Below, piece by piece: positions 13,023-39,872 of a DNA stretch of 64,000 nt. The notes below the pieces were generated by a model. That model did not search any database, was not told where the DNA came from, and saw only the letters and a list, made by a program, of their open reading frames with translations. The translations under genes were made by a program, and so were the position numbers. Position 1 is the first letter of the stretch; each line of letters opens with the position of its first letter. Source of the stretch: Spirodela intermedia (lineage: Eukaryota > Streptophyta > Magnoliopsida > Alismatales > Araceae); the NCBI GenBank assembly GCA_902729315.2, contig LR746271.1:2874001-2938000 (forward strand), read 5' to 3'.

Positions 13023-13600
13023 TAATGAATCGAATTAGAGGTTAAATACGTCATTGTGATGCAACAAAGTTCATGCAAATAAGATTTATAAAATGTCACT
13101 CTTCTACTTAGGATAAGTAAGGGTTGATCCTTAGAGAGTGTGGGTAATGAGAGTACGAATTCTACTTATTTTATTTCTTATATAGATATATATATATATA
13201 TATGTGAGATTGTGAAGGGTGGAATTAAATGTAAAAAGGTAAAGACAAGAGTTGTGAAAAGCATGAAAAAAGAGAGAGAATTGATCTAACGCAATGGAAT
13301 GATAGAATAAATGATAAAACTAATTTAAATTAAAAGTTAATCTATCTATGAAGAGGATTACAAAGATGCTCAAATCTGGATCTTACACAAACCTCGTTGT
13401 GCACCAGTCCTAGACCGAGTGATGCTTGATCTGTGATGATCTTGATGTGCTCCAGGTAATCTCTTCTCCACGATGATCTTGGGCACGAGAATACCGTTGA
13501 TTAAGCCTTGATTTCCTTCCTATTTTCTTCAACTAGCCACTGTTAAAGAGAGACAAAAAACACACTCCAAGAGGGGGGTGAGAATATGAAATAAGTAGAT
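13023..13600 (-). repeat. 3' LTR of Athila-2 (recognisable part)
   Basis: Aligns by eye with the 3' part of the 5' LTR at about 25660-26233. Shared blocks include the (TA)n run, CTTATCCTAAGTAGAAGAGTG and AAGATCATCGTGGAGAAGAG-like sequence. The upstream part of this LTR differs from the 5' copy, so its start could not be placed. Confidence 0.7.
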
Positions 13601-14899
13601 AAGAATTCCTCACTGATCTCTACTCGTCAATGACTTTTTCTTTCCTCTATTCTCCTCATTTTTTTCTTTTTTTTTCTTTTTTTTTGATGAATGAAAATCT
13701 TAACTCAAACATATACAACTTAGAAGAGGATGATAAAATATTGAGAAAGATGAGTATGGAGAAGAATAAATGACACATGTAAAGAATAAGTGTTATTTGG
13801 GGTAACAACCATCATGAGTGGAGATGAAAAATTAATGGAAATAGGGTGGCCTAATTGTGAAAATTTGAAGGGTAAATTTTGGTCAAGGGATAAAATGGTA
13901 TGGTTGGATAAGATATAGGGACTGAATAATGTATAGTGGATAAGAAATGTATGGATATCATTCTGTACCTAAGATTAAATGTCCTTTCACTATTCCAAAA
14001 AGAATTTTTTTGATCAATGAGAATCCATATACCAAGTAGGATTGATTGACATAGGGTAGGGGGTCTAAATTTTCTATCACTCAATTCTCTCCAGTCCACA
14101 CCAATAGTACTTCAACCTTTTGATTTCTCATATTCCTTTGATGCTCATTAGATATCCCACTCGTAGGAGGTCATCCATTATATAAAAATCCTCATAATTG
14201 ATCTAGGTCCCATGGTTGTGTCATTCTGAGTTGATCTCAATCTGCTGTAGTAGCCTAACTTCTATGCCCTAAATTCCAAGATTTCTAGGTGAATAGACTC
14301 ACTAAGGTGGGGTTGATAACCCTTGAAAATATTTTTATGAGTAGATATCCTCCACTTAGTAAAAAAACTAAAAATGCATCAGTCACATGTAAAATTTTAA
14401 AATTTTTGTAGAAGACATGTAAATGACTCATACCCCCCACTTCAATCATGCATGGTCCTCAATGCATGTGGAAAGAATTAACATAAGTAAATTTTTCAAA
14501 CCGAGGGTAGATGCTTTATTTGCAAGAATGGAGATAGCCCTTTGTGACTTTTATGATCATCTCTCTCAGCAGCAAAAAATCATGGAGATTTCAAGGCCCT
14601 TCTACATAGAAAAGAAAATAAAAATACAAAACAAAACACACACGAAAGAAAAATACTAAAATGAAAATTAAAAAAAAGTAACTACTAGGCTTGTGCAGTG
14701 AAGTTAAGAGGATCATTAGTTTCACGGAATGACTTATTAAAATTAATTGAGATTGATGGAGAAAGTGAATCATTTTCTACAAGGTTTCAATCTTTGTCCA
14801 TTCACTTTTATATGCTATCCTATTTTTGGACCCTCAATTAAAACAACACCACATTCAAAGACTTTAGTAATAATAACTGGACCATCCTATCTAGATTTT

Positions 14900-16690
14900 A
14901 ACTTACTAGAAAAGAGCTTAAATCTTGAATTATAAAGCCATACTTTTTGATTTTCTTTGAATTCTCTTCTTCTTAATTGTTTGTTATGAAATGCTTTCAT
15001 TTTAGCTTTATAGATCTTAGAATTCTCATGTGCCTCATTTCGAATCTCATTCAACTCATGTAATTCAAGTAATCATTTCTTTTCAGCATCATCAAGAGAT
15101 AAATTTAATTTTTTAATTGCCCAATATACTCTATGCTCTAGCTCTAAGGGAAGATGACATACTTTACCAAAAAATCATCTATATGGTGACATGCCTAAAG
15201 GAGTTTTATATGTTGTCCTATATGCCCATAGAGCATGATATAATCTTCTAGATCAATCCTTTCCATCAAGCTTATAGATTTTTTACAGAATTTTTTTTAT
15301 CTCTCTATTACATACTTCTACTTGTCCATTGGCTTGTGGATGATAAGGTGTAGTTATCCTATGATGAACTCTATATCTTTTCAATAGGGTCTTAAATTGA
15401 TAATTATGAAAATGTGATCCTCCATCACTAATGATGGCCCTAGGACATCCAAACCTTAATTGTTATAAATTTAACTACCACCTTTCCATCATTGGTTCTA
15501 GTGAGAATTGCTTTTACCCAACGAGACATATAAGCTACTGCCATCAAAATGTATTCATATCCCTCTGAATTTGGAAAAGGCCATATGAAATCAATTCCCC
15601 ATAAATCAAATATCTCTATTTCTAAAATTCACTTAAGGGGCATATGATCTTTCTTACTCAAATTAATGGTCGCTTGACATCTTAAACACCTTAAACAAAA
15701 ATCATAAAAATCTCTAAATAAAGTTACCCAATAAAACCCACATTGTAAGACCGTTGAAGTTGTAATTTTAGAAGAATAATGGCCTCCACATGGTGATGAA
15801 TGACAAAACTCTAAAAAAAATTCTTGTTCCTCCTCTTGCACACATCTCTTCAAAATTTAATCAACTCTTAAATAAAATAATTCATGTTCTTTTTAATAAT
15901 AATGTGATAATATTTTGAAGAATTTTTTCCTCTCATTGTAGTCCCAATCTAAAGGCAACATTCCTATAGCAAGATAATTTACTATATGTATACCAAGGAA
16001 TTTTCCTCGCTTGAACTCCTAAAATATGTTCATCGGGAAATGAATCACTAATGGGCTATGAGTCTACTACAGTCATCCTCGATAAATGATCAGCCACTAC
16101 ATTTTCACTTCCCTTCCTATTCCTTATCTCAATATCAAATTCTTGTAACAAAAGTATCCACCTAGGAAGCCTAAGTTTAGCCTCTTTCTTTCTAAGTAAA
16201 AACTTCAAAGCTACATGGTCAAAAAAAATAACAATCTTACTACCTAATAAATAAGACCTAAACTTTTCTAAAGCAAAAACAATGACTAGTAATTCCTTTT
16301 CAGTAGTTGAATAATTTACCTGAGCATCCATCAAGGTCTTACTAGCGTAATAGATGGTCATCAGCTTCTTGTCGATTCTTTGGCCTAAGACTGCTCCCAC
16401 CGTAAAATTTGATGTATCACACATTAGCTCAAAGGATAAGCTCCAACAGGGGCCTGCAAAATAGGAGCTTGAATAAGTGCATCTTTAATTTGATTAAAAG
16501 CAATCCAAGCATCACTATCAATAATAAAATCAACATCTTTGGACAAGAGATTAGTTAAGGGTTTAGAAATCTTTGTAAAATATTTAATAAATCTTCTATA
16601 GAAGCTTGTGTGGCTGAGGAACTCTCTAAGTTGTTTTAAATTACTAGAAAGAGGTAGACACTTGATCACTTCGATTTTGACTTTGTCTAT
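14900..16690 (-). pseudogene. Athila-2 pol remnant: RT end, RNase H, integrase
   Basis: From 16690 downward: the RT connection segment (16669-16424; FLSHTSFYRRFIKYFTKISK), then RNase H (16424-16056; MCDTSNFTVGAVLGQ, STTEKELLVIVFALEKF, VVADHLSRM), then an integrase zinc-binding domain (15853-15629; CHSSPCGGHY, CLRCLRCQ) and a stop-rich integrase core ([10 protein letters not shown] near 15600) fading out near 14900. The family is Athila-type by overall sequence. RNase H is open for 122 codons; the other parts are broken. Confidence 0.85.
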
Positions 16691-17284
16691 TGATAAGTCT
16701 TCATTATCATGAGTAAATAATTAGTAAATAATATAGTTTTAGCCTTAACTCATGATAAATAGACTTATATTTATGTTAAAGTATGATTTGTGGTTTTCAG
16801 TTGATTAACGTGAATTTTTGGGTAATTATGTGATTTTATATGGTTTTTATAGTCTTACTTTTGAAATAAATGAAGAACAAGAAATAAAAATAAAAATATT
16901 GCAAAATGAGGGGACCCGTCGGCCAGCTGGGCCCGCAAGCGGGTTAGAAGCACAGTCGGGGAGTAGCCGCGAGCAGGGGCTCGAGCGGCTTAGCTTGGAC
17001 CGATAGGGGCACGTGTGCGCCACTCCCCTTCCACGTCACCGGTGGCCAGCCGGCTGTGGGGCAAGGAGTGATCGTACACGCGAGAGAAGGGACTTTGCTT
17101 ACAAAGCTAACATTACTATATATTCGCCCAAAAAATTGGCGCACAACTGATGTGGGACTAAACCCGCGTCACACCTTCCTCAAAGGCGGGCGACCGGCAC
17201 GGGTTCGAATCCTCCCAGAGTCAAAATTCATATATTTTTATCTGATTATCGCGACTTTCTTGCAGATCGCCGGTGAAGGATTAA
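16691..17284 (+). repeat. Solo LTR D/E, 5' part (D)
   Basis: Starts TGATAAGTCTTC and follows the Athila-1 LTR to GGATTAA, where element F begins at 17285. The left flank TCTAT reads ATAGA on the other strand and pairs with GTAGA left of LTR E (29723-29727). The missing 3' part of this LTR is 29728-30771. The two parts together give the expected ~1.63 kb once the TTAAT duplicated by F is counted once. Confidence 0.9.
17010..17124 (+). promoter_or_regulatory. Athila-1-type LTR promoter: G-box plus TATA
   Basis: CACGTG at 17010-17015, a second ACGT core (CCACGTCA) about 22 bases on, and TATATATT at 17117-17124. The same arrangement is kept in both LTRs of Athila-1 (38550 and 38660; 47230 and 47337). 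G-boxes are bZIP/bHLH sites in plants; activity here is inferred. Confidence 0.45.
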
Positions 17285-19372
17285 TGATGGCGAGCGGGAC
17301 CCGTCTCCATCAGCTCAGGAGACACCAGCAGTCCGAGTTCAGCCCGATTGACGTGCGAAGATGAAGGAGCCTGGCTTTCGCTACACGGCCTAGCCCTTTG
17401 GGACAACGACATTCCACCTCCATGATGATGACGAGCTTGAGCTCACCCATATCTTTCTTTGTATTTTCATGTTGACTTGTTGGGCCTCGCATTTGTGTGT
17501 TAGCGGGCCCAATTCTATGTGTGTGTGTTGTTGTTTGTCTCTCTTACTTTAGGGTTTTATTGGGTCTTTCTTTGAGGCCCAATTAAAACCCTAAGGGGGG
17601 GGGACCTATGTGTCTTTCTTTTTTTGGGCCTCTTTTGGGGCTTATTTGGGTCTTTATTTGAGGCCCACTTAAGCACCATAAGAAGGCCCTCCTCTTTCTC
17701 CTTTTAGGGGAGCTTATTGGGTCTCTCTTTAAGAGGCCCAATAAGCCCCTTTTTGTAGCCTTTGTGGCTTATGGGCTTGAGGGTCTCAAGTGGGCCCACC
17801 TCGCCTTAGCCCACTTGTGGGCCCCCATATAAGGGGAGGTAGGACCCCCCCTCAAGGAGCGCCGTATTTTTGAGAGAAATTATCGTTGTGAGTTATCTTC
17901 CTCGTGACCAAGAATAGGGAGGGAAGGAGGAAGAGGAAGGCCGTCGATACCCCCTTCGAGGACTTCGTTCCTCGTGACGCTGCTGCCCGAGAAGTCCCGC
18001 TGCCGCCTGAGACCACTGCCGCCGCCGGCCATCTCATTGCCGCCCGGGAGCTCGCCGCTGTCACCGGACGAAACGGTCGCGGTTGCCGCTGCATCCGCCG
18101 CCGCCTCTGCTGGAACCCCGTCACGCCGCCGTGACGAAAAGGGCTCGCTTCGCCTCCCCCACGAGCCGTCGCCGAGCACTCCGCCGGAGTCTCTCGACTC
18201 CCGGTTCGACTGCCGCCTCTTCCTCCGGAACTCCACCATAAATTCGCCGGAGCCGCCCTCCGCCGCTCCGCCCAGTCGCTGGCCGTTCGCCGACGAACGC
18301 CGACCTGCCGCCGACGTCGGAAGAGACCCCGCAGCCGTGCTGACGAGCCAGAACCAGTCCCAGCTCCTCACAGGCCCCCGCCGGATTTTCCCGACGCTCC
18401 GCCGCCGTCGCGCCGTTTCCGGCGCCGCTTAGACCAGGAGAGCTCAACCCTCCCTGGTATCGTCGGCCGGATCGTCTCCTCTCTACTCCGCTTCCCGGCG
18501 CCGCCAGAGAGGCCGATCCTTCCGGTGACGGTTGGGTTTCCGCCCCAACCGCCGACGCTCGGCATTCCCGCCGAAGCGCCGCTGACGCTCGGCATTCCCG
18601 CCGAAGCGCCGCTGACGCTCGGCATCCCTGCCAAAGCGCCGCAGACGCTCGGCCTTCCCGCCGAAGCGCTGCCACCACGTGCGCCCCGCGCGCCGGCTCT
18701 TGCGGCCCGCGCGGCCACCTGGCGCCACTGCCCGCGTGCCCTTCGGCCCACCAGCGGGCCCACGCCCACTAGCGTGCCCTTTGGCCCACCTGCAGGTCCA
18801 CGCCCACGCCGACTGTGCCACGCCCTAAGACGACGACTTCCGTGACCCTCGACCAGGACCGACCGTCGACGCTGAGCATCGCTCTTCACCGGACGTCCCT
18901 GCCTTCGTCGGATCTCCGCTCCGTCACGACCCGCCGGGCTACGCAGCCCTGAAGGTTAGCTCCGTACCCCTTCTTACTTAAGTTTAATTATCTTTCGAAG
19001 GGTTTTCTTGGCTCGTCTCTACTGCCTTCAGGAGCACGTAGACAGGATAGGATAGGTTAACGGATTGTGACTTCCGACGCTGTGCCAGACTCGTCACAGT
19101 TCGTGAGCTGCAGCCCTAGGCTACTTTACGACGACAGTTCTGCCGTCTGTCTGGACGTGGACCGAGAGGGCCTCTCACTCACCATCGTCGAGTATTTCCC
19201 CGGGTTGTCCTGGGATGATCACGCATATTGGTATGCCTGCCTGTGCTTAGGTTACGTGGTCAGACCTAGAGTCTAGGGTCCAAACCTTCTTATTAAATCG
19301 GTCCGACTGTCCCATCATGGGACTTGAGTTTCATTGATCAGGTATAGGGGGTTCTCGCCCCGTCCTGCATCA
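17285..19372 (+). repeat. Solo LTR F, copy 1 (inversion breakpoint)
   Basis: 2,088 bp, starts TGATGGCGAGCGGG and ends CGTCCTGCATCA; TG...CA ends and 5-bp target duplications mark it as an LTR. It is GC-rich in the middle, with TATAAGG at 17828-17834. Its flanks do not match each other: left is Athila LTR D, right is the 5' end of Copia-1 (GAAGG, i.e. CCTTC on the other strand). The partner of each flank lies beside F copy 2 at 30772-32859. No internal region of this family is in the window, so its superfamily is unknown. Arg/Ala-rich ORFs inside are GC-rich frames, not genes. Confidence 0.9.
18553..18672 (+). repeat. Four 30-bp tandem repeats inside LTR F
   Basis: Four units of about 30 bp with the core GACGCTCGGCATTCCCGCCG. 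F copy 2 has the same array in reverse near 31470-31600. Confidence 0.85.
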
Positions 19373-19662
19373 GAAGGGTTGCCGCGAAGACTAGTTACCA
19401 TCGAGGACAAGGGCACCGAATTGAGGAACTCCACCAGGAGGAGAAGGGCGCGGCTAGGAAGGGCGGCACATCGAAGAGGGAGGCAACAGTTGGAGAGAGC
19501 CTTGAGCTCTGATACCATGTTGACAATGAAAGAGGAAACCCTAGAATACATCATCGAGAATAGAGGACTATGCGTGTATGTATAAAAGAGGAGAAGAGGA
19601 GACAGAGATAATGAACCCTAATGGGCCCTAATGGGCTAAGAGTCTAATGACACTATCAAACA
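19373..19662 (-). mobile_element. Copia-1, 5' end
   Basis: Minus strand: 5' LTR 19662-19518 (145 bp, TGTTTGATAG...GTCAACA), then the PBS, then ~130 bp of leader/gag start ending in CCTTC beside F. The continuation, beginning again with CCTTC, is at 32860 on the plus strand. The 3' LTR at 48940-49084 has the same length and sequence pattern, so this is one element cut by the inversion. Confidence 0.88.
19506..19517 (-). other. Primer binding site, Copia-1 (tRNA-Met)
   Basis: Reads TGGTATCAGAGC on the minus strand, directly adjoining the end of the 145-bp LTR; a perfect match to the common initiator tRNA-Met PBS. Confidence 0.93.
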
Positions 19663-20894
19663 TACATATTACTAGCCTAACTAATGGTCTTCCAAGAGTT
19701 AATTTCTACCTCAATTTTATATTAAAATATTTAAAAAATAATATAGCAATCATTTAAAATATTAAGTACATGGAGTGTTGATCTATTATTTATGACAATA
19801 GAACTGTATTAAGATGTCATTTTTAAGAAAGTGGTCACATATTTATATTTATTGTAGAATATGTTTCTTTAAAAATAATTTCCTCACCAGGACTTTACTA
19901 GACAATTTACACATGTTCTAATTATACTTCAATGACAACTAATTCACTTCAATTCCACTTCAATTATGCTGATCAAACATGACTTTCACGATGCCTCAAA
20001 ACTCATTTTGTCGTTATCAAAATTAGGTAATAATTGAGGAATATCAACACTCTTAATATGCTCTTATAAAATACTTGTTATATCATAATAAGAAGTTTTT
20101 GACAACATTTAATGATTTTCCTTCCTCTTCATTTTCTATTCCACTTGTTTTGTTTTCCTATCATTTATGAGATTTCTCTACTCTAAACTCTACCCCTAAT
20201 GAATAGGCCCATATTCCATAATTCATCTATTATCAGTTTTATTATAGATTCATTTGATATAAATTTTTCTTTTAGAAACGTGCATCTTCCATCTAAAGAA
20301 AGTCTTTGTCCTAAAACATTCTTATTAGAAATGTTCATGTGGCACATGAAGAGATTTCAACATCATAAGGGCTTTGACCTTGGCTTCTATATCAATAGTT
20401 GGGATATAATCATATTCAAAAAAATTCAATTCTCCAAGGTATTTGACTCTTCTTTCATCCGAAAAGTTTAGAGTAAATGTTTTAAAAATAACTTGGTTGT
20501 TAGAGATTGTCTAGTTTCGTTCACCACCTTGGCATTGAGTTTTCATAAGACTCCTCACATATCTTCCATGCAAACCTAAATGCTGTGATATTTTGCACAT
20601 ACCCTACTAAATTAATAGATCTTTCATTTTCCATTTCCTCACTCCAAAGTACTCATTTTCATAAATGTTTTCATCTTTTGAAGTGATTACCTTTCATGTT
20701 GAATTTGAATATTACAAAATTGAACTAAGTACTTTGAAATCAATTGTTAGAATAATTCTAATCACTAAGATCATCCATCTCCACACAATATGCACTTATA
20801 GCCACAACTCAACAACATACCATTATACAATAAATTTACCTGCCAAATCTCAAAATATGAGAAACAAAATGATAGGAGGAAGCAATCCCTGTCA
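19663..20894. other. AT-rich DNA, nothing recognised
   Basis: Before the inversion this stretch joined the 5' flank of Copia-1 to the Chromo-1 LTR array. It has no ORF with a recognisable domain. A 90-codon plus-strand frame at 20199-20471 looks like chance. Confidence 0.4.
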
Positions 20895-23800
20895 CGCTAG
20901 CATCTTTAACTTTGATTACACTCAAAGTCTACACACACCCTACATGCACATATCACAACTCTGGATTTCTGCATTTTCCCTTCTGCTCAATCAAACATTG
21001 CCCAAAGATAACAAAGCTCCCCATTGATAGGAAGGTTGAAGTTCGACTTATGAATACCCGCTGGTTTGAATGGCATCTATCCTCTCATTGACTTTATGAG
21101 TGAAGTTGGATCCTTCACAACCTTCCGAATCACTCTATTGAAAGGAGAGGTCGTGCACACATGAGTAAGGAAAGAGGGGAAGGAAGGGGGGAAAAAGGAA
21201 GGGAGGAAGAGACTAGAGTGGACTAACTCGGAACAAGAAACAATACATAACCAAGACTACCTTGGTCTTGGGGTTGCTAATACGAGATGACAAATCTCCA
21301 GCTCTAAAAGGAGTTTCTTTCAACTGTTCTCTCCTCTCCTAAGAGCTAACCCCTCTAATTTATAACCTTTGTGGTTCATTGACGCCCTTCTTCCTTGATG
21401 GGAATTAACATATGACATGATCTGTTGATGTCAGATCATGCCATTTGTGTAATTTTGCTGCTGGATCCTTCTACCGCCCTCACCTCTTACCCAACAAGAT
21501 CAGTTATATTGTTGCCCCTAATGATGTCAGTTTCCCATGTCTTGTTGCCTTGCACTCCACTCTAGCTGCTAGATTGTAGTACTAGAATAGGCCGACTCCT
21601 TTAAGATCTTGTTCCTATTGGCCTAGTTCTAACTATCAGGACATCTTTAACTTCAATTACACCCCAAGTTTACACGTGCTCTACATGCACATATCACAAC
21701 TCTAGACTATTAATAATTCCCTTTGCCCAACCCAACATTTCCCAAAGGTAACAAAGCTCTCTAATAAATAAAAAATTTAGCGTTCGACTAATGAATACCC
21801 ACTAGTTCAAATGATGTCTATCCTCTTGTTGACTTCATGAGTGAAGTCAAATCTTTTATGACTTGACAAATCACTATATTGAAATGATATGTCATGCACT
21901 CGAGATGAAGGATAGAAGGGAAGGAAGGTAGGAAGAAGGAACAGAGGAAAAGACTAAAATGGACTAACTCAAAACGAGAAACAACACATAACCAAGACCA
22001 CCTTAGTCTTGGGGTCACCAATACGAGATGATGAATCTCTAACTCTAAAAGGAGTTTCTTACAACTGTTATCCCCTCTCCCAAGGGCCATTCCCTCTAAT
22101 TTATAGCCTTCATGGTTAATTGATGCCTCCTTCTTTGATGGGACTTGGCACATGACAAGATCTATTGATGTTAGATCATGTTGTTTGTGTAGGTTCACCG
22201 CTAGATCTTTTTGCTGCCCTCACCTGTTGCCCAACATGATCTGTTGCCCCCAATGATGTTGGGTTCCCGCAATTCGTTGCCTTGCGCTCCACTTTGACTA
22301 TGAGGTTCTAGTACTATAGTAGGTCTATTCCTTTGAGACCTTGTTCTTATCGATCCAATTCTTACTATCATACTCTCAACAATAGTCTTCCCCCTCCCAA
22401 ATAGAGTTTCTTACAATTGTTCTCCCCTCTCCTAAGAGTTGTCCCCTCTAATTATAGCCTTCGTGGTTCATTAATCTCGTCCTTCCTTGATGGGACTTAG
22501 CACATGACAAGATTTGTCGATGTCAAATCATGTCATTTTTGTAGGTTCACCACTGAATTCTTTTGCCATCCTCATCTCCTACTTAGTAGGATCTGCTATA
22601 TTATTGTCCTCAATGATGTCAGGCTCCCACGTCTTGTCACCTTGGGCTCTACTCTTGCTATCAGGTTGTAATACTAGAATAAGTCAGTTCCTTTCAAACC
22701 TTGTTCTTATTGACGCAATTCTTACTATAAAGGCCTCAACAATACTCCCCCCTCCCCTCCAAAAAGAGTTTCTTACAAAAGTTTTCCTCTCTACCTAGAG
22801 CCGTCCCTATTAACTTATAGCCTTTGTGGTTCATTAATGCCCTCCTTTGTTTATGTAACTCGGAACATGACATGATCTGTACATGTCAGATCATGTTGTT
22901 TGTGCAGGTTTGTCGCCGGATCCTTTTGTCGCCCTCACCTCTTGCCCAACATCTTGCCACTTTTGCACTCTGCTTTGGCTACCAAGTTGTAGTACTATAG
23001 GAGATTGATTTTTTTGAGACTTTGTTCTTATTGGTCCAATTTTTACTATCATGGCCTCAACAATACTTCCCCCCCTCCTATAAAGAGTTTTTTACAATTG
23101 TTCTCCCCACTCTCAAGAGTCATCCCCCCTAACTTATAACCTTTGTGGTTTATTGACACCCTCTTTCCTTGATGGGACTCGGCACATGACAAGATCTATC
23201 GATGTCAGATCATATAATTTGTACATGTTCACTGCTGATCTTTTTGCCACCTTCACCTCCTGCTTAACAAGATCTACTATATTATTGCCCCCCAATGATG
23301 TTGGGTTTCCACATCTCATTATCTTGTGCTCCACTCTAATTGCCAAGTTGTGGTACTATAGTAGATTAGTTCCTTTGCAACCTTGTTCTTATTGGCCTAG
23401 TTCTTACTATTAGGGCCTCAATAATACTTCCCCCCTCCTCCCAAAAAGATTTTTTTATAATTGTTCCACCTTTTCCAAGAGTTGTCCCCTCTAGCCTATA
23501 GCCTTCATGGTTTATTTATGCCCTCCTTTCTTGATGGAACTCAATACATGACAAGATTTGTCGATGTCAAATCATACAATTTGTGCAAGTTTGCTGTTGG
23601 ATCCTATTGTTGCCCCTAATGATGTCAGGTTCCACATCTTGTCGCCTTGTTCTCCACTCTAATTGTTAGGTTGTGGTACTAGAGTAGGTTAGTTCCTTTG
23701 CAACCTTATTCTTATTGGTCTAATTCTTACTATCGTGGCCTCAACAATACTTCCTCCCTCCTCCCAAAAAGAGTTTCTTACAATTGTTCTTGCTCTCCCA

Positions 23801-24110
23801 AGAGTCGTCTCATCTAACTTATAACATTTGTGGTTCATTGATGCCCTCCTTTCTTAATGAGACTCAGCACATAACAAGATATGTTGATGTCAGGTCATGT
23901 CATTTGTACAGGTTTGCCGTTGGATTCTTTTGCCACCCTCACCTCCTGCTTGGTAGGATCTACTATATTGTTGTCCTCAATGATGTCAGGTTTCCGCACC
24001 TTGTCGCCTTGTGCTCTACTCTAACTAATAAATTGTGGTACTAGAGTAGGCTAGTTCTTTTGTAACCTTGTTCTTATTGCCTGGTTCTTACTATCAAGGC
24101 CTCAACAATA
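20895..24110 (-). repeat. Tandem array of Chromo-1 LTR copies
   Basis: In element orientation (high to low): five U3-R fragments of ~310-360 bp (about 24110-23765, 23749-23436, 23426-23075, 23065-22755, 22745-22387), then two full-length LTR copies (22386-21789 and 21641-21048). A ~150-bp spacer follows each full copy (21788-21642 and 21047-20895). The fragments are joined by G-rich PPT-like blocks such as GGGAGGAGGGGGGAAGTA. The LTR-plus-spacer unit repeats with a ~741-bp offset. The units are diverged, so the array is old. It begins beside the PPT of Chromo-1 and so replaces a simple 3' LTR. Confidence 0.75.
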
Positions 24111-25110
24111 CTCCCCCCCCCCCTCCAATTATGCACCTAGTCCTCAAGGTGGAAGGTAGAAAATTGTCGGTAGATGTTGTGAGCTAGTTCCCACATGGTG
24201 GCATTGGTCGGCATTTCCTCTTACTAGATAAGCACTTCGGGGCCATGAGGATAGTAACAAATGTTTGCGACCCAATCCGGGACCACTGTCTAATGCAGGT
24301 CACCATCCATGACTAACTCGGACGTTGCTAGGGTCTTCTATCATTGCTCCACCCTTTTCAGCTATAACATGTGGTATACTTGATGAACTTGGGCTAAGGT
24401 GGGGAGGTCTAGATGATACGCCACTAACCCAATGTAATGAAGGACTTTGAACGAACGATAGAAGCAAAGAGCAAGCTTCACATAGGTCCATCATGTGATT
24501 CTAGTGTGGCAATAGAGTCGTTGGCGAAGGTAGATTCACTTGCCTACTTGGATACTTGATTTCCCTTCCTTTGTGGTTTGTAAATTGCTTCATTTGAGCT
24601 TGAGTTCATTCCAAATCTTGTTTGAGCAATGTGAGGATCTCATCAAGTCCCTACAGCTTGTGCTTCATATCTACCGACATCATGGGTTTGCTAATGAAAT
24701 GGATCAAAGTTGACAAAGATCGTCCATAAACCTCTTGAAATAAGGTCACAATCATAGTATATCTCAGATGCTAGTCCACAATTGACCACCTTTGACTAGC
24801 CACATGCTAGTCTACTTAAGCGTTGTCTGTTGTTAATGAAAAAGGGCTTACTAAAAGGAGCTTATGAAGGTTCAATCTTGATCAATAAGGATGGATGTCA
24901 GAAATTTATACAACTAGATGATATGTCAGATGACGACTTTTACTACTGTCTAGATTGTAAATAGATGATGAAGCGCAAAAACATGGGCATACTTACTAAG
25001 TCAGTCAACAATGATCAAGATAGCATTCCAACTATGAGAGACTAGTAACCCTTCGATGAAGTCTATTGTCAAGCTTTCTCATATGCAGTTGAAAATTATA
25101 AATTAGTAGT
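24111..25110 (-). pseudogene. Chromo-1 3' part: integrase core, chromodomain, PPT
   Basis: Minus strand, continuing the integrase interrupted at 13022 after its GTAGT target duplication. Readable pieces: LTIDFIEGLL, WNAILIIVD-LSKYAHVFALHH (integrase core, ~25050-24940); VKLALCFYRSFKVLHYIGLVAYHLDLP (~24490-24400); and a chromodomain-like tail near 24250-24150 (VRGNADQCHHVGTSSQHL in a shifted frame). A poly-purine tract reads GGAGGGGGGGGGGGAG on the minus strand at 24111-24126, just before the LTR array. Broken by many stops. Confidence 0.78.
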
Positions 25111-26042
25111 TGTATCTATGCATTCATATCTTATATATAGATGCTAATTAATGAGTAAATAATACTATTATATATGTGTTACCAACTCATTATGACATTT
25201 ATAATATTTTATCATTTAAGTCCTTGTGCATATTATTTTAATTATTTTATTTATATTATAAGACTAACCCCACTTTTATGAAGTCAAGTGGTGATTCTCT
25301 CACATTTTCTTGATAATTATTTAATTGCAAAGACTTAGGTGAGTTGTTAATATGAGTTGGAAGTAATAGAAAAAGCCCAAGCCTTCAACCCAATGAAAAG
25401 TTTAAATTTTATGAAGAGGGCCGGCCTAATATGTTTATGGGCTCAAAAGAGGGCATCACTTTGGCCTAATCCATTTGGACTTAAAAGGACTATCGAGAGA
25501 TAAGATCTAAGCTCTCCATCTTAGGGCGCTTTAAGATGAGATTAAGAGAAGGATTAGAACGCCACCCTCATTGAATGATTTGGACCATCCACCAAGAGAG
25601 TCGATTATTAATCATAACCGTCCATTAGAGGGGCCTAACTTTCGAAAGGATTAAGGCATTTTGCCTCCCTCTTGAAAGGCACTTTTGGCTCTCTCTCTAG
25701 TAGTGGCTAGCCGAAAGAAACATGAGGGAAATCAAGACATGATCAATGGCATTCTTGTGCCCAAGAACATCGTGGAGAAGAGATTACTTGGAGCACATCA
25801 AGATCATCACAGATTGAACATCACTCAGCCTAGGACTAGCGCACAACAAGGTTTGTGTAAGATCTAGATTTGGGTGTTCTTATAATCTTTTCTATGGATA
25901 GATTAACTTTTAATTCAAACAAGTTTTATCATTTATTCCATCATTCTATTGCGTTAGATCCATTCTCTCCCATTTGTAACACTTTTCACAACTATTGTCT
26001 TTACTTTTTTACATTTAATTCTGCCTTTCACAATCTCACACA

Positions 26043-26082
<40 letters not shown>

Positions 26083-26233
26083 AAATAAAGTAAGTAGAAT
26101 TTGTACTCTCATTACCCACGCTCTCTAAAAATCGACCCTTATCCTAAGTAGAAGAGTGAGATTTTATAAATATTATTTACATGAACTTGGTTGCATCATG
26201 ACGATATATTTAACCTCCAATTCGAGTTCATCA
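25111..26233 (+). repeat. 5' LTR of Athila-2
   Basis: TGTATCTATG start and TTCATCA end, about 1.12 kb. The start is fixed by the GTAGT target duplication. An (AT)n run lies at 26046-26080. The 3' ~570 bp match the 3' LTR at 13023-13600. Confidence 0.8.
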
Positions 26234-26236
26234 AGC

Positions 26237-26256
26237 TGACGTCATTGATGGGGAAC
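26237..26256 (+). other. Primer binding site, Athila-2 (tRNA-Asp type)
   Basis: TGACGTCATTGATGGGGAAC, three bases after the LTR. It matches TGGCGCCGTTGCCGGGGAAC except for five positions, mostly transitions. This tRNA-Asp-type PBS is usual for Athila elements. Confidence 0.75.
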
Positions 26257-26506
26257 TAGGTGTCATTGAGAGAATTAAATTTTTCCTTTAGTTTTCTTTC
26301 ATCTTCTCTTTATTTTTCTGTCATTTTTTCTTTCTTCAACGAACAGTTTTTTGAGCCATTGATTGAGAATTTTTCAAGAAAAATATCACTTTTCAATTAT
26401 ACAATTTCGTGAGATTTTTCTTTTCTATAGCCTCTCTTTTATTACAGAAATTCATCAAAGGAGGCTTTCAAAAGGTATATCTCTTACTTGAATCCTTTGA
26501 TTATTT

Positions 26507-27587
26507 ATGCACGGCACTAGATCTAAGAAATCAAATTTAGTGGACCTTGATTCAATAGGAAGATCTAACACTCTTGAGGATAGAAGAAGTTGTGAAGAGA
26601 TGGACCCACCACAGAACTCAAGGAATAGAGATTTATCTCTAAACTATGATGATAGAAGAATGAAAATGAGAAAACATTATAATCCTATGGGGAGTAAATC
26701 AAGTGCTGAAATCTGCCCACTTTTGAGAGGAGTGAGCTTTAAGATAGAAAATATATTTATTAATTTCTTACCTAGTTTTCATGGTCTATTCAGTAAAGAT
26801 CCTTATGCATACCTAGAGGAATTAATTGAAAAATATTCTTTGAATCAAATTTTAGGAGTCACTAGTGAAGTTATGAAGATGAAAGTTTTTTCTTCGACTT
26901 TAAAAAATAGAGCTAAGGAATGGTTTAATAATTTAAGAATGAGATTTGAAAGTTAGGAAGAAATAGAAACCTGCTTTCTTAAAAAAAAATATTTCCTAGG
27001 GAAGACTAATTCAAATAGGAGAACCATACAAACATTCACTCAAGGAGATGATATATTTGGTGAAGTTTGGAAAAGATTTAAAGATTTGACTAGGAAGTGT
27101 CCTCACCATGGGTATAGTAAATGGCAATTGATTCATTTTTTTTATAAAAGGTTACATAAAAATGCTAGAAATAAAATTGATATGGTATGTGGGGGATCAC
27201 TTTTAGATAAATATGATGATGAGGTAGAAGAATTGATTGAACGATTGATTGAAAATGACAACCATCACATGGGGTTGAGTCAAAATGAGAGAAATGTAGG
27301 ACCCAAGAGAGGAGGAATCTTGAATGTAAAAAAGTATGGAACCTGAAATTGAGAGCGATATGACCAATAGGCGTTTAGGAAATGTTGAGGCATCCTTAGG
27401 GAAGTTTACTGATATGATGCAAAATTTATTATCTAACCCTACTATTTTACATGTTCATAATACTCCATGCTCTCTATGTTTTAACAAAGGACATGTAGAT
27501 AGTGAATGCATCGACACTAGTGAAGTGAATGTGATGAATCATGCACCACTTGAACTCATAGAATGGGCGAGGCAATACAAACTTTAA
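26507..27587 (+). pseudogene. Athila-2 gag remnant
   Basis: Open from an ATG at 26507 to a stop at 26956, then continuing in pieces (27086-27346, 27336-27587). Athila gag signatures are FHGLFSKDPYAYLEELIEKY, VFSSTLKNRAKEWFNNL, RFKDLTRKCPHHGYSKWQL and FYKRLHKNARNKIDMVCGGS. A degenerate zinc knuckle (CSLCFNKGHVDSEC) lies near 27470-27510. Interrupted by stops and frameshifts. Confidence 0.83.
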
Positions 27588-28212
27588 CAAGGAATCTCCA
27601 CCCTTCATTAATCCTCACGACTTATACAAATTTTACAAGCAGTTCAAAAGAACCAACATAAAACAAAAGAAGCAGTGCGAGGCATGGTGAGAGATGTGGA
27701 GCAGCTCACGACTGATGTGGAGAGGCTGAATCAAGTCAACTCTAATGTTAAAAATATGAAAGGTAAAGGGAAAGAAGTGGACTGTGGTACAGGTTGATTT
27801 CCAACTCAGCCCTCCATTAATCCACGTAATATTATTTCTATAAAATCTCATGTATCTTTTCCTTCAGAAAATCATGAATGCATTCATGCCATAACTAAAT
27901 TAAGAAATAGGAAATATTTAGTTGACTATTATGACAAGAATGAAGAGGGAGAGCAAGAGAAAACGTTAAAGAAAGAAGAGAAAAAAGTAGAGCTGAAAGA
28001 AAGAGAACCAACCTTAGAAAAATATTAACCACCTTTTTTTTTTCAAAAGCTTTAAAAATTACCAAACCTCTCATCCAAAATAATAAACTCTTAGATACCT
28101 TTAAGGAGACCACAATAACCATTCCCTTAGAAGAAGCAATTAAACATATTCTTTCATTCTCAAATATGTTAAGGAACTTTGTACTCTCAATAGGAAACCC
28201 AAGAGAGTCAGA

Positions 28213-29727
28213 TTGTCTAAAAATGTTAGTTATATCATATTAAACCAAATTCTAGAAAAAAAAAAAGATCCAAGTGTACCCTTGATTACTTGTGATATTG
28301 GAGGAACACATTTTTCTAGATCTTTATTAAATTCTGATGCTAGTGTCGATTTCATGCCAAAAGCCTTATATGATAAATTTAAATTTGGAGATCTAGAACC
28401 AGTCCTCTTAAAATTACAACTTGCAGATGGATCTATTAAGCAACCATATGGTATGCTGAAAGATGTGATGGTTAAGGTAGAACATTGCACATTTTCTGTT
28501 GATTTTATTGTGGCTGATATGAAAAGACCTGAAAATTGGAGTAGAGCACCAATAATTTCAGGGAGACCCTTTTTAGCCACTGCCAAAGCCATAATAGATT
28601 GGGAAAAAGGGATAGTAGTATTAAGGGTAGGAGAGGAGAAGGTCAAATTGAATATTTCGAGATTAATGAAATATCCTAGTGTTAGCCATGAAGAAGTTAG
28701 CATTTGTGATGTCTTTGATAAAGATGATGAGCTAGGAGAAAATTATTTTGAAATTTGTGGAGTAGAACAAAAAGAAGAACTATTAGAACCTCCAAAACCT
28801 TTTGCTGCCCCAAATTCAGACGTAAAACCTTTACCCTCTTCATTAAAATATGCATTTTTAGGCCCTAAAAATACCTTACCTATTATTATATCATCAAGCC
28901 TTACATCTAAACAAGAGGAAAAACTCATGCATGTATTGAAGGAAAATAGGACAGCAATAGGATGGTCACTTGATGATATAAAAGGAGTACCTCCTAATAT
29001 GTGTGAGCATAGGATATTTATAAAAGAAGGCTCTAAGCCATGAAGAGAAAATCAAAGGTGCCTAAATCCTCATATGCTAGAAGTGTTAAAGAAAGAAATA
29101 TTGAAATGGCTTAAAGCCGATATGATTTATGCAATCTCGAATAGCTCTTGGGTAAGTCCAGTCCACATGATACCAAAGAAGACCAGCATAATAGTGGAAA
29201 AAAATGATAAAGGGGAAGAAGTGCAAACTAGATTAGCCACCAGCTAGAGAGTATGTATAGAGTATAGGAAACTAAATCTAGTAACTAAAAAAGATCATTA
29301 TCTCTTGACTTTTACTGATCAGATTTTAGAAAAATTAGCTGGCCAAAATTATTTCTATTTTCTTGATGGTTATTCAAGGTATAATAAAATTAATATTCAT
29401 GTGGATGACCAAGAGAAGACCACTTTTACATGTCTAGTAGGAACATTTACTTTTAAATGAATGTCATTTGGTTTTTGTAATGCTCCTGCTACGTTTCAAA
29501 GATGTATGAATGTCATGTTTACCAAATTAGTGGGCGATGGATTAGAAATTTTCATGGATGATTTTTCAGATTTTGGTACATCATTTAATATGTGTTTATT
29601 TAATCTGACATAGGTGCTACAAATATGTATCCAAAATAATATTGTATTAAGTTGGGAAAAATCTCATTTCATGGTGTAGGAAGGAATAGTTAGGACATTG
29701 AGTCAGCAAGTATGGGCTGGAGGTAGA
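28213..29727 (+). pseudogene. Athila-2 protease and RT 5' part
   Basis: The frame is open from 28213 to 29043: protease (LLNSDASVDFMPKALYDKF; the usual catalytic D-x-G-A reads SDAS, so probably dead), then the linker to RT (PLPSSLKYAFLGPKNTLP, AIGWSLDDIKGVPPNMCEH). The RT follows in broken frame: SWVSPVHMIPKKT, FYFLDGYSRYNKI-type sequence, MSFGFCNAPATFQRCM and catalytic FMDDF near 29555. It ends in LSWEKSHFMV and the break at 29727. Confidence 0.85.
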
Positions 29728-30771
29728 TGACGTGACTTAGTCGTTGTATATTAAATCACGCAAATATAAAATTTATAAAACTATAAAATACGACTTTTTA
29801 GATATTTAGAAGTATTTCTGAACAAATATATCAATTATAATTCAATAAAACTTCCAAAAATAGCGATAATTTTTCAAGTCGATCACAGGGATGTAATATA
29901 ATATCTGGTAATTATTCCAAATTTTTCTCAATGAATACGATTTTCTATGAATTTTATACTAGGAAATAAAAAGGAAATATATTTAAAATTCACGAAAAAG
30001 AAGGAAATAAGGGCGTGGACGTCAGGATGACGTCAGCACCCGGTGAACACGAATCGGGCAGAAACAGAGTTCTGCCCGGTGACTCTTGCGTAAGCGATTA
30101 TAGACGATTTAATTAATCAAATTAAGATCTGTAAAAGCCAGAAGAATCGTAATAGAACAAAGTATATTTTGGTAAATTAAAATCACAAAAACTATCACTA
30201 AATGAAGCGTAAAGTAAGTTGAAAGCAGGAAAACAGAGTTCCGGCATCGCGACGGCGATGCGTCGACGATGCACCGGAATCCTGAGCGTTCGGGAGGATC
30301 GTCGTGCAGTGTCCACGGCCTCAAAGGCTCTCCTTGGGCAAAGACGACGTAAGCAATCTCTAGATCTTCTCGCGAAGTCTAGAAATTAATGAAATGGGTC
30401 GCCGAGTCGTCTCTGGCGGCTGTCACCCGGCGGAGCAGAATAATGGCGACTTTGCGGCTCTCTAGCGGCTGTCACCCGACGGAGAAGAGCTGGATGGAGG
30501 TGGGGCACGTGTCAGGGAGCTTCATCCTCAGGTCCGCGCAGCAAGAGGAGGCTCTTCATCGCATTTGGTACGCTCTCAGGAGGTGGCGACTCGTCTCCCA
30601 GCGGATCATCATCTTCTCGACGATGGCTTGTTCGTTGATCAATCGGAGATGATTTACTTGATGGATTCGCAATCCTTTTATCGCGAATCGTTCAGCAATT
30701 TTAGTAGCAATGCTCCGCAAATCGCGTTGACGAGATTTTCGCCGATGATCCAGCGATTCTCATTGCTTAAT
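29728..30771 (-). repeat. Solo LTR D/E, 3' part (E)
   Basis: Plus-strand start TGACGTGACTTAG, left flank GTAGA. It follows the LTR to CATTGCTTAAT, where F copy 2 starts at 30772. The TTAAT at its end matches TTAAT (on the minus strand) beside LTR D at 17284. This is the target duplication made when F inserted in the LTR. Confidence 0.9.
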
Positions 30772-32859
30772 TGATGCAGGACGGGGCGAGAACCCCCTAT
30801 ACCTGATTAATGAAACTCGAGTCCCATGATGGAACAGTCGGACCGATTTAATAAGAAGGTTTGGACCCTAGACTCTAGGTCTGACCACGTAACCTAAGCA
30901 CAGGCAGGCATACCAATATGCATGATCATCCCAAGACAACCCGGGGAAATACTCGACGATGGTGAGTGAGAGGCCCTCTCGGTCCACGTCCAGACAAACG
31001 GTAGAGCTATCGTCGTAAAGTAGCCTAGGGCTGCAGCTCACGAACTGTGACAAGTCTGGCGCAGCGTCGGAAGTCACGATCTGTTAACATATCTTATCCT
31101 GTCTACGTCCTCCTGAAGGCGGTAGAGACGAGCCGAGAAAACCCTTCGAAAGATAATTAAACTTAAGTAAGAAGGGGTACAGAGCTAACCTTCAGGGCTG
31201 CATAGCCCGGCGGGTCGTGACGGAGCGGAGATCCGACGAAGGCAGGGACGTCCGGTGAAGAGCGATGCTCAGCGTCGACGGTCAGTCCTGGTCGAGAGTC
31301 ACGGAAGTCGTCGTCTTAGGGCGTGGCACAGTCGGCGTGGGCGTGGGCCTGCAGGTGGGCCAAAGGGCACGCTAGTGGGCGTGGGCCCGCTGGTGGGCCG
31401 AAGGGCACGCGGGCAGTGGCGCCAGGTGGCCGCGCGGGCCGCAAGAGCCGGCGCGCGGGGCGCACGTGGTGGCAGCGCTTCGGCGGGAAGGCCGAGCGTC
31501 TGCGGCGCTTTGGCAGGGATGCCGAGCGTCAGCGGCGCTTCGGCGGGAATGCCGAGCGTTAGCGGCGCTTCGGCGGGAATGCCGAGCGTCGGCGGTTGGG
31601 GCGGAAACCCAACCGTCACCGGAAGGATCGGCCTCTCTGGCGGCGCCGGGAAGCGGAGTAGAGAGGAGACGATCCGGCCGACGATACCAGGGAGGGTTGA
31701 GCTCTCCTGGTCTAAGCGTCGCCGGAAACGGCGCGACGGCGGCGGAGCGTCGGGAAAATCCGGCGGGGGCCTGTGAGGAGCTGGGACTGGTTCTGGCTCG
31801 TCAGCACGGCTGCGGGGTCTCTTCCGACGTCGGTGGCAGGTCGGCGTTCGTCGGCGAACGGCCAGCGACTGGGCGGAGCGGCGGAGGGCGGCTCCGGCGA
31901 ATTTATGGTGGAGTTCCGGAGGAAGAGGCGGCAGTCGAACCGGGAGTCGAGAGACTCCGGCGGAGTGCTCGGCGACGGCTCGTGGGGGAGGCGAAGCGAG
32001 CCCTTTTCGTCACGGCGGCGTGGCGGGGTTCCAGCAGAGGCGGCGGCGGATGCAGCGGCAACCGCGACCGTTTCGTCCGGTGACAGCGGCGAGCTCCCGG
32101 GCGGCAATGAGATGGCCGGCGGCGGCAGTGGTCTCAGGCGGCAGCGGGACTTCTCGGGCAGCAGCGTCACGAGGAACGAAGTCCTCGAAGGGGGTATCGA
32201 CGGCCTTCCTCTTCCTCCTTCCCTCCCTATTCTTGGTCACGAGGAAGATAACTCACAACGATAATTTCTCTCAAAAATACGGCGCTCCTTGAGGGGGGGT
32301 CCTACCTCCCCTTATATGGGGGCCCACAAGTGGGCTAAGGCGAGGTGGGCCCACTTGAGACCCTCAAGCCCATAAGCCACAAAGGCTACAAAAAGGGGCT
32401 TATTGGGCCTCTTAAAGAGAGACACAATAAGCTCCCCTAAAAGGAGAAAGAGGAGGGCCTTCTTATGGTGCTTAAGTGGGCCTCAAATAAAGACCCAAAT
32501 AAGCCCCAAAAGAGGCCCAAAAAAAGAAAGACACATAGGTCCCCCCCCCTTAGGGTTTTAATTGGGCCTCAAAGAAAGACCCAATAAAACCCTAAAGTAA
32601 GAGAGACAAACAACAACACACACACATAGAATTGGGCCCGCTAACACACAAATGCGAGGCCCAACAAGTCAACATGAAAATACAAAGAAAGATATGGGTG
32701 AGCTCAAGCTCGTCGTCGTCACGGAGGTGGATTGTCGTTGTCCCAAAGGGCTAGGCCGTGTAGCGAAAGCTAGGCTCCTTCGTCTTCGCGCGTCAATCGG
32801 GCTGAACTCGGACTGCCGGTGTCTCCTAAGCTGATGGAGACGGGTCCCGCTCGCCATCA
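30772..32859 (-). repeat. Solo LTR F, copy 2 (inversion breakpoint)
   Basis: 2,088 bp, exactly the length of copy 1 and in inverted orientation. Plus-strand ends TGATGCAGGACGG and CTCGCCATCA. Left flank is Athila LTR E (TTAAT), right flank Copia-1 (CCTTC). The flanks are mismatched here, and both matches are found at copy 1. By eye it is ~0.3% different from copy 1 over about 17470-18840 (copy 1 coordinates) but ~5% different over the first ~190 bp and last ~500 bp. Confidence 0.9.
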
Positions 32860-35800
32860 CCTTCTCTGTGCCGCCTCTACTTCCACCCCTTTCCAGGATG
32901 CCACACCACTGCTGGCCGCTCCTCCAAGCTGCCACGCCACTACTGTCATGGCCTCCTCTGGTCGCTCCAGGCCACTATGCCAAGCATGCCCTAGGTGCTG
33001 CCCCCTCCGCTTGATTGCCACTGCTGCCGAAGCATGTCCTAGGTGACGTACTCTACTATTGCAGCCTCTGCCACCACCATGGTCTCCGCCACTACTGCAG
33101 TCTCCCTCCAGCCATGCCTGAAGGTCTCCATCATTGGTTGTGTGCCCTCGGCCAGCATCCTCCCATGCCTTCCTAGCGTGCCCCTCTTGGCCGGTGCTCG
33201 GCTCCAAGCTGTGACCTCCCTATGTCATTCCGGTGCCGTCCGTGCTCCACCGGCACCTGCACATTCATGGCCTCCTTTGCGGCATCTTCGTTGTCCCCAT
33301 CCCCACTTGCCTTAGAGCTCCTACTGGACGATGTTCTACCTCCTCTGGTTGCCCCCCAGCATGCCACTCTATTATGGTGCAACTCACTCGGCCCACTTAT
33401 ACATTCAACAATCATAATTACGCATCATGGGCACCTGGCTTTGAGCTCTTTTTGTAGTCTCATTACCTCCTTCATCATCTCCGGTCTCACTCATTCCTTC
33501 AAACGTCATTGCCCCAACTTTCAACATCAACTTGACGTCTGTAGAATACGATGCGTTTTGCTGCTATGTCAATCTCTATAGTCCTAGCAGTGCCTCTTCT
33601 TCTACCAGCCTTGCCTTACTTCTAGCTCCCTCTACGTCAAGTACACATTCTCTCATTACTTATTCTTCATTACCATGTATTATTGACTCGGGGGCTTCCA
33701 CTCATATGACTAGCACTTCATCATTTTTATCTTCATATCAACCTACCCCTTCTCATCCTCATGTCACCATTGTCGATGGCTAAACTTGTTTGGTCAAAGG
33801 CCATGGCACTACCTTTGCCACCCCTAACCTTCTCTTCCAGCAAGTCCTTCACATTCTTGGCTTTCTTGCGAATCATCTTTTGATTAGTCATATTACTCGT
33901 GCCCTTAGTTGTACTTTTTTTCCTTTTCATTGTACTTACTAGGATCTGCACACCAGCTAGAGGATTGGTTTGGGCTGTGAGAATGGGTGAGATGTCTATG
34001 AGCTCATTTCAACTGAACCCTCTTTTGGACTTCAGGCCCTTTTTGTTGCCTCTACCACCACTTCTTTCCTTTTATGGCATTGGCGGTTAGGTTATCTTTA
34101 TTTTGAGAAATTTCAAAAAATCTTATCATGGTTTTTTCTTAAGAAGTTTGTGTGCGAGTTATGTTAGTTGAGTAAACACCACTATTCTTCCTATCTCAGT
34201 CGAGATGGTATTCCCTCTTCTGCCTTTTTCGATCTCATCGATTGTGATGTATGAGGTTCTTTTCGTACTCTTTCTTTCTCAAGCCACTGATATTACATCG
34301 TTCTTATTAATAATTACACATGTGTGAGTTGGATATACCTTTTACACAACCGCTCTGAGGTCGTCACTATTGTTACCCACTTTATCATGGAGGTTGTCAC
34401 TCAATATTTCACTATGTTCAAAATTCTTCTCACAAACAACGCCCTCAAATTTGTCCAAACCTCTCTTTGAACCTTCTACACTAATTGTGACATTATCAAT
34501 CAGACCCCTTATCTTTATACCTTGTAGTAGAATGGTGTCATTAAGCGCAAATATTGTCAGCTTCTTAACATCACCTGCACTCTAATTCTTGAGATGAATG
34601 TCCCACACTATTTGTGGACTAATGCCCTCATGACGACCACTTACTTTCATAATTGACTTTCCTCCACTCCTCTAGGCAGAGACATTCTCCTTCAATGCAT
34701 CCTATCTTCCTTGCCCATATTTTTCCTTCCTCCTCGGATCTTTGGATACACTACCTTCAACTAAGATCACTCTCTTTCCCTATCCAAACTCGTCCCTCAT
34801 GCTCTCAAAGGGGTTTTTGTTGACTACTACTGAACGTAGAAAGGTTATCGGGTTTACTTTTCTAACATTTGTAGCTATGTTTCTTCTTCTCTACCTTCCC
34901 TCCTCCTTGAGCTGTTGCCTCTCCTCCACCTCGTTTTCCCTCATTGGTGGTCCTTGTAGATTCATCTCCTTCGACTCCCTCCTATCCGTCTTCTCCACCA
35001 TCACCTCTTCCTCTTGGCTCCCTGTCTCTACCAGCCTCCTCTCTTTTGACTACAGATCTATCATCCCTTTCCTCCACTGAGCTGATTGTGCCTCCCACCA
35101 ACGTCCCCAATGCTCCTCAAGATGATATTCATTGTCCCACCACCCCCTACACAAAGGTGTTCATACTTGTACTTAACACCCCATCTCTCACTTCATTTCC
35201 TATGCCTTTCTCCCTCCTTTCGTACCTTTGCCCCTATTGTGATCTCTGAGTTGATTCCCCACTTGCATGTTCAGGCAGCATAGGTACCTGAGTGGAAGGC
35301 AGCTATGGACTCTAAAGTGGACGCCTTGGTATTTTGAGGGACTTGGATACTAATTTTTCATCTAACAGACGTTAATATCATCACATGCAAATGAATGTTC
35401 ACACTCAAATACCATCCAGATGACACTATTGCACATCACAAGGCTTGTTTGGTTACTCATGACTTCACTTAAGAGTATGGCATCAACTACACTGAGATGT
35501 TCTCTTCTGTCATTCGATTCGCTTTCATTTGAGTGTTCCTCTTTCTTGTCATAAATCAAGCATGGTTTCTCTACTAGTTGGATGTTTTTAATGTCTTTCT
35601 CTATGATGATCTCGAGGAGTAGGTTTTTATGAAACAATCATCAAGGTATGTTGCTCAAAGAAAGTCATCTAAGGTATGTTTCTTGTAGAAGGTGATTTAC
35701 AAGCTCAAGTAGAGTCCACAAACTTAGTTTGTCAAGTCCAGTGGTCTTCTACCACATTTGGCTTCTCGTCGTATGCTGTGGATCCCACTATACTCATAAA

Positions 35801-36346
35801 GAAGATTGAGGGCAGCCTAGTCATTCTTGTAGTCTACATCGACGACATTTTTGTGATTGGGAGTGATGACACAAACATTCATTCTACCAAAGTTTATTTG
35901 TAGCAGCACCTTAGCATCCGTGACTTGAGGACTCTAAGGTATTTTCTTGAGATCGAGTTTGCGTACTAGGACAAAAAGCTCGTCATGACACAACAAAAGT
36001 ATGCTCTTGACATGTTTTAGGAGACTGGACTCTTTGGGTGCAAGTTGAAGACTTTGCCCATAGGAGCCCATCCGTAGTTCTAGGACACTTCCTCTCTACT
36101 CCTTGAAGATGCTAATTAGTACAAGCAATTATTGGACAAACTAACATATCTCACCTTCACTCACCCCAATATCGTGTATATGATTAGTGTTTTGAGTTAG
36201 TTCATGTTGGAGCCATGACGAGCTCATTGAGAGGGAGCTCTATGGGTTCTAGTATACGTCAAACAAGCCCTAAAAAAAGGCTTATCTATTGGCGACATGG
36301 CTAACTCCGTGTCGAAGCCTATTATGATGCTGGGTATGTAGGTGAC
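32860..36346 (+). mobile_element. Copia-1, main internal part
   Basis: Starts with CCTTC, duplicated at 19373-19377 on the other strand. Runs through a Ser/Pro-rich gag region, protease, integrase and RT to 36346, where solo LTR G is inserted in the RNase H. It continues at 38154-38221, is interrupted by Athila-1, then resumes at 48549 to the PPT and 3' LTR. Confidence 0.88.
33532..36346 (+). pseudogene. Copia-1 pol remnant: protease, integrase, RT
   Basis: Protease: CIIDSGASTHMTSTSSFL at about 33677-33730, the classic copia D-S-G-A site, in the open frame 33532-33783. Integrase (about 34130-34750): CELC-LSKHHYSSYLSR, WIYLLHNRSEV, NALKFVQTSL and LPPRIFGYTTF, with many stops. RT: WKAAMDSKVDALVF near 35300, FSSVIRFAFI, then LVILVVYIDDIFVIGSDD (the Y-x-DD catalytic box) in the open stretch 35676-35903, followed by LTFTHPNIVYMISVLS near 36150-36200. 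Enough stops and frameshifts that it cannot be active. Confidence 0.87.
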
Positions 36347-39867: not shown

Positions 39868-39872
39868 AATTT

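Follow-up and report, generated by a model that had tools for sequence, protein, structure and literature searches.

Swapped target-site duplications at two opposite solo long terminal repeats flank a probably inverted 11.4-kb segment in Spirodela intermedia

In Spirodela intermedia, two opposite 2,088-bp copies of one long terminal repeat (LTR), designated F1 and F2, enclose a segment that very probably lies inverted between them, most likely as a result of their pairing on one chromatid and a crossover that took place after both insertions. The segment (19373-30771) is located in a 64,000-bp stretch of DNA, referred to below as the window (positions 2874001-2938000 of contig C8; the genome assembly comprises 136.5 Mb in 32 contigs). 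The target-site duplications (TSDs) of the two F copies are swapped, and four lines of interrupted elements (LTR D/E, Athila-2, Chromo-1, and Copia-1) become collinear when the segment is turned. This arrangement supports one inversion with both breakpoints in the F copies: it is sufficient both to restore the four elements and to account for the swapped TSDs, and no additional assumption is needed. We infer a reciprocal crossover within F. The F copies, their duplications and the segment are positioned as follows:

17285..19372, plus strand: F1, solo LTR at the left breakpoint, 2088 bp, 98.2% identity with F2
30772..32859, minus strand: F2, solo LTR at the right breakpoint, 2088 bp, 98.2% identity with F1
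19373..30771, no strand assigned: inverted segment, 11,399 bp, as deduced from the junction tests
17280..17284, plus strand: ATTAA, left half of the TSD of the F copy inserted in LTR D/E; adjoins F1
30767..30771, minus strand: ATTAA, right half of the TSD at the LTR D/E site; adjoins F2
19373..19377, plus strand: GAAGG, half of the TSD of the F copy inserted in Copia-1; adjoins F1
32860..32864, minus strand: GAAGG, other half of the TSD at the Copia-1 site; adjoins F2

The F1 and F2 sequences align from end to end without gaps (2051 of 2088 positions identical, 37 mismatches, identical runs of up to 400 bp), and the alignment reproduces exactly the coordinates that an earlier note on this DNA had given for both copies and their strands. 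They begin with TGATG, end with CATCA (the TG...CA type), and have no internal domain attached. A longer F element on contig C13 includes two F sequences around approximately 3.5 kb of internal DNA, where the LTR end is followed by AA and TGGTATTAGAGCCAGG, a primer-binding site (motif found by eye) which we take to be of the tRNA-Met type. Because this site stands right after the F end, F is interpreted as an LTR, and F1 and F2 as solo LTRs. With regard to a Ty3/Gypsy placement of F, defined by reverse transcriptase, RNase H, and integrase domains in this order, three open reading frames of the longer element gave no matches in the Pfam scan, and one open reading frame is integrase-like by eye. 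The genome was searched with F three times, each search scoring the best 40 of 241-291 candidates, and the F copy counts are lower bounds. At two places (L020, C10:4781048-4785222, and L036, C11:6748092-6751730), an F copy is nested in another F copy in the opposite orientation.

The flanks of F1 are ATTAA/GAAGG, and those of F2, read in its own orientation, are GAAGG/ATTAA. The earlier note had described them as mismatched within each copy and matching on exchange, which is what we found: 0/5 bases agree for each copy on its own and 5/5 on both sides crosswise. With equal base frequencies, the chance of a crosswise match for one given pair of 5-mers is about 1e-6, and with the frequencies of the window it is 4e-6. 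As a control, the 30 best-scoring F copies were considered, namely F1, F2, and 28 others, of which three truncated ones were dropped. Among the 25 full-length control copies, the TSD matches in 5/5 bases in 15 cases and in 4/5 in eight (including L021 and L022, which look like one duplicated pair), while two are unmatched. For one of these (L011), the mismatch is explained by element-internal sequence on one side. The other, L033 (C17:2295503-2297512), is a full-length F flanked by TCGTG/CTGCA, for which none of the fetched copies provides a partner, and represents a candidate for another rearrangement.

One can suppose that no inversion happened, F1 and F2 being independent insertions with decayed duplications and the split elements being separate fragments; old, nested, and decayed repeats are indeed common in the window. 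However, the crosswise flank match extends over 10/10 bases, and the four elements align across the partner flank and not across their own, so the probability of this explanation is negligible. The first three of these elements meet at the junction which involves the ATTAA duplication:

16691..17284, plus strand: LTR D, first part of an LTR of ~1640 bp, with the TSD TCTAT at 16686-16690
29728..30771, minus strand: LTR E, rest of the LTR that LTR D begins, with the TSD TCTAC (minus strand of 29723-29727)
14894..16685, minus strand: second half of Athila-2 (end of the reverse transcriptase (RT), RNase H, and integrase region), Pfam RT_RNaseH and Integrase_H2C2; 14894-16638 is homologous to 43397-45155
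26501..29727, plus strand: first half of Athila-2 (gag, protease region, and RT start), Pfam Retrotrans_gag, RVT_1 below cut-off; 29063-29675 is homologous to 42683-43295
25664..26231, plus strand: Athila-2 5' LTR-like repeat, 82% to 13025-13578
13025..13578, minus strand: Athila-2 3' LTR-like repeat, 82% to 25664-26231
12225..13024, plus strand: Chromo-1 piece to the left of Athila-2, with relatives in the genome
24290..25089, minus strand: Chromo-1 continuation in the inverted segment, with relatives in the genome

LTR D ends with GTGAAGGATTAA, and LTR E resumes with ATTAAGCAATGAG. The window includes five sister LTRs, which start at 4905, 9920, 36347, 38222, and 46907. All of them read GTGAAGGATTAAGCAA, with ATTAA present once, and in each the D and E matches overlap by exactly 5 bp. 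The own duplication of LTR D/E (TCTAT/TCTAC, 4/5) is visible only with the segment turned. This LTR interrupts a Ty3-type pol, which by eye resumes codon for codon across the LTR as in the sister element 38222-48543, while the BLAST matches of the pol halves to that element stop approximately 50 bp short of LTR D/E on each side.

The LTRs of a single element are expected in the same orientation. The Athila-2 LTR-like repeats are inverted to each other at present and become direct once the segment is turned. The Ty3/Gypsy order of gag, RT, RNase H, and integrase is found across Athila-2 and the sister element 38222-48543 (Retrotrans_gag, RVT_1, RT_RNaseH, and Integrase_H2C2, some below cut-off). 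The names “Athila” and “Chromo” are the family names of the earlier note; Athila-2 is placed here to the level of the Ty3/Gypsy superfamily only.

The Athila-2 5' LTR-like repeat is abutted by a high-copy repeat of ~570 bp (25090-25659), which has at least about 40 scored relatives in the genome. Since a Chromo-1 query next to it gave matches chiefly to this repeat, one lying further inward was used inside the segment. The two Chromo-1 pieces occur within 4 kb of each other at eight loci elsewhere, in 8/8 cases on the same strand with the flipped order; the gap is at most 572 bp in seven of these loci and 3.2 kb in one. Single pieces are found as well (the second alone at one locus, on C2, and the first alone at 10).

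The other junction, with the GAAGG duplication, divides Copia-1:

19517..19662, minus strand: Copia-1 5' LTR, 146 bp, followed by the primer-binding site TGGTATCAGAGC (motif by eye) and the gag start
32860..36346, plus strand: Copia-1 gag/pol continuation, Pfam Pol_BBD and RVT_2, both weak and below cut-off
48939..49084, plus strand: Copia-1 3' LTR, 82% to the 5' LTR, with the purine tract GAGGGGAAG just before it

The pol scores of Copia-1 are 16 bits for the Copia-type reverse transcriptase (RVT_2, cut-off 31.6) and 26.1 for Pol_BBD (cut-off 27). Its LTRs are now inverted to each other and become direct after turning the segment, and the stretch 48540-49087 matches Copia 3' ends elsewhere as a single piece. 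The genome search scored 40 of 59 candidates for the first junction piece and 37 of 37 for the second. Thirteen other loci have both pieces at most 1.5 kb apart and invariably on the same strand, 12 of them in the flipped order; loci with one junction piece alone also exist. Two of the 12 flipped-order loci, both on C16, give identical matches and look like one duplicated region. On the same contig, C16:1079177-1082578 and C16:1185543-1188864, separated by approximately 106 kb, show the same Copia and F matches with the same spacing, probably due to a segmental duplication. Across the empty GAAGG site, 5/7 fetched Copia relatives align through with scores above the best of 300 shuffles.

Turning the segment had been predicted in the earlier note to rejoin LTR D/E, Athila-2, Copia-1, and Chromo-1 collinearly, and each of the four separate junction tests agrees with this. 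The genome relatives in the flipped order (12/13 loci for Copia-1, 8/8 for Chromo-1), to which that note had no access, give support to its interpretation as one inversion. The own duplications of the elements are weaker than that note implied, and several observations speak against the proposed order. The Copia-1 own duplication matches in 3/5 bases only, and none was detected at the outer ends of the Athila-2 LTR-like repeats. One of the 13 Copia loci (C5:768-770 kb) has the other order, by the LTR part only; two of the seven Copia relatives fail to align through the junction above shuffles, and four of the five that do so have 16-17 extra bases near the GAAGG site.

An addition beyond the earlier note is the uneven distribution of differences between F1 and F2, whose middle parts appear homogenised:

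17430..18796, plus strand: homogenised middle of F1 (F 146-1512), putative gene-conversion tract, 5 of 37 differences inside
31348..32714, minus strand: homogenised middle of F2, 5 of 37 differences inside

The middle (F 146-1512) includes 5 differences per 1367 sites, and the ends 32 per 721. The resulting middle-to-end ratio of 0.082 is the lowest among 406 pairs of 29 copies, the next being 0.134 and the median of the other 405 pairs 0.47. This median indicates that other pairs are less different in the middle too; an explanation of the low middle count by rate variation was, however, rejected by permutations in which the sites were weighted by their variability in the other F copies (0 of 20,000 reach the observed pattern). 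Eight bases are present in F1 and F2 and in none of the 27 other copies, seven of them in the middle, which is a weak sign alone (0.04 by site variability, 0.18 by length); at two of the eight positions some other copies are gapped. Trees built separately from the ends and from the middle join F1 and F2 as sisters, with the support of 93 and 100, respectively; the branches leading to the two copies are long in the tree of the ends (0.021 and 0.027) and short in that of the middle (~0 and 0.0039). All five remaining differences in the middle are polarised as F2 changes.

These data point to gene conversion, in connection with the crossover or at a later time, which would have occurred well after the F insertions. 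One result weakens this interpretation: measured against the ratio of the second-lowest pair (0.134), the five differences in the middle would be nothing out of the ordinary (binomial 0.21). With regard to chimerism of the F copies, the polarised end changes, counted after dropping two ambiguous sites, are distributed between F1 and F2 as 6:3 in the 5' end and 7:14 in the 3' end, i.e., in the expected direction and not significantly (Fisher p 0.12). When the haplotypes shared with the other F copies were compared at the 37 differences, no clean switch between two parental types emerged, and hence the crossover point is not placeable.

The same F copies are relevant to the question of whether the plant itself is uninverted, the present order being due to an assembler that crossed over in the inverted repeat of 2.1 kb and connected flanks which do not belong together. 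Such an error would produce the same TSD pattern; it would be facilitated by arms of 98.2% identity with identical runs of the length given above, and the near-identical F middle could stem from reads shared between the copies. Nevertheless, 37 differences are recorded, five of them within this middle and all of the latter polarised to F2, and therefore the copies were told apart along their length. Moreover, any read longer than ~2.1 kb with unique flank resolves the order, and the continuity of the assembly suggests that long reads were used. We consider an assembly error very unlikely.

Replication template switching, or another kind of break repair between the F copies, might also have inverted the segment in place of a reciprocal crossover. 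It would create the same junctions and can hardly be told from a crossover by sequence alone. Yet neither junction has a deletion, a duplication, or an added base, and each F copy is complete, free of gaps, and homogenised over a long tract, as predicted for homologous recombination. This makes repair of that kind quite improbable, and we give preference to the crossover between F1 and F2.

We suggest that the two F copies were inserted in opposite orientations and approximately 11 kb apart, one at the target ATTAA in LTR D/E and one at GAAGG in the Copia-1 gag region, and that each was reduced to a solo LTR. A crossover in F would then have turned the segment, breaking up Chromo-1, Athila-2, and LTR D/E at one junction and Copia-1 at the other. 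By gene conversion, either in the crossover exchange or in a later one, approximately 1.4 kb of F sequence may have passed from one copy to the other. A more speculative and rather unlikely possibility is that F1 and F2 operate as a recurrent flip switch, with ongoing recombination, both segment orientations coexisting among clones of the species, and repeated conversion keeping the arm centres near-identical while the ends diverge.

The F1/F2 inversion belongs to a known kind, the Galileo-type inversion by ectopic recombination, here between solo LTRs. For the 2z3 inversion of Drosophila buzzatii, opposite Galileo copies at the breakpoints, exchanged target duplications, and chimeric copies are reported, with an attribution to ectopic recombination (PMC2775673). 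Opposite copies of one element at the breakpoints and exchanged target duplications are common to both cases. The Galileo duplications are of 7 bp, and the comparison was made with uninverted chromosomes, whereas here we deal with solo LTRs, 5-bp duplications, and an 11.4-kb segment rich in nested repeats, compared with paralogous relatives only. A single target copy at undisturbed sites is seen in paralogous relatives only (ATTAA in 5/5 sister LTRs, the Copia site in 5/7 relatives). While chimeric copies are reported there for 2z3 (PMC2775673), the signal of chimerism in F1 and F2 is not significant.

In plants, recombination of inverted repeats is named in a review as a usual source of inversions (PMC13393857). 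At the wheat locus 5B2, two same-family LTRs at different sites are thought to have recombined in the same orientation, with a suggested loss of sequence (PMC7156093); our LTRs are opposite and the outcome is an inversion, though in both cases LTRs at different sites would have recombined. For plant LTR retrotransposons, solo LTRs that have kept or lost their duplications are described, as is conversion from one LTR to another (PMC7251063; REANNOTATE, PMC2672092), conversion between different elements being much rarer than within one element (PMC7251063). Inversion is not mentioned in the passages of PMC7251063 considered, while here the exchange between elements would have left both a homogenised tract and an inversion. 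In the literature searched, which leaves out most subscription papers, no plant case of swapped TSDs at solo LTRs was found, and we make no claim of a first.

The F1/F2 inversion is an ordinary kind of event in an unusually clean state of preservation. Inversions by recombination between transposable elements are often proposed, but the duplications that would prove them are soon lost by decay; in this case they are still perfect, and the four split elements serve as “witnesses”. A trace of the exchange, to which a relative time can be assigned, is kept in the middle of the recombining copies. Plant retrotransposons commonly end up as solo LTRs, and this case shows that such remnants can still rearrange DNA at close range. 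A simple genome-wide test is offered: a search for pairs of solo LTRs whose target duplications match only crosswise.

The window includes a PPR gene, a DUF716 gene, and a part of a potassium transporter gene, i.e., represents plant DNA; the closest named relative of the transporter is from Anthurium amnicola (Araceae, 65%). Nested retrotransposon DNA makes up much of 4905-49084. The Ty3-type element 38222-48543 has an LTR pair of 93.2% identity and the duplication CCTAG/CCTAG, and the solo LTR 9920-11567 has the duplication GGGAC/GGGAC. The latter is overlapped by a 410-bp tandem repeat of an LTR start (11154-11977, 88% alike), and a 176-bp tandem duplication (36662-37016, 98% alike), probably recent and local, is located within the LTR 36347-38153. 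Inside the inverted segment, the region 20901-24128 is composed of diverged repeats with a spacing of ~320-740 bp, which have an inverted relative at 3972-4565.

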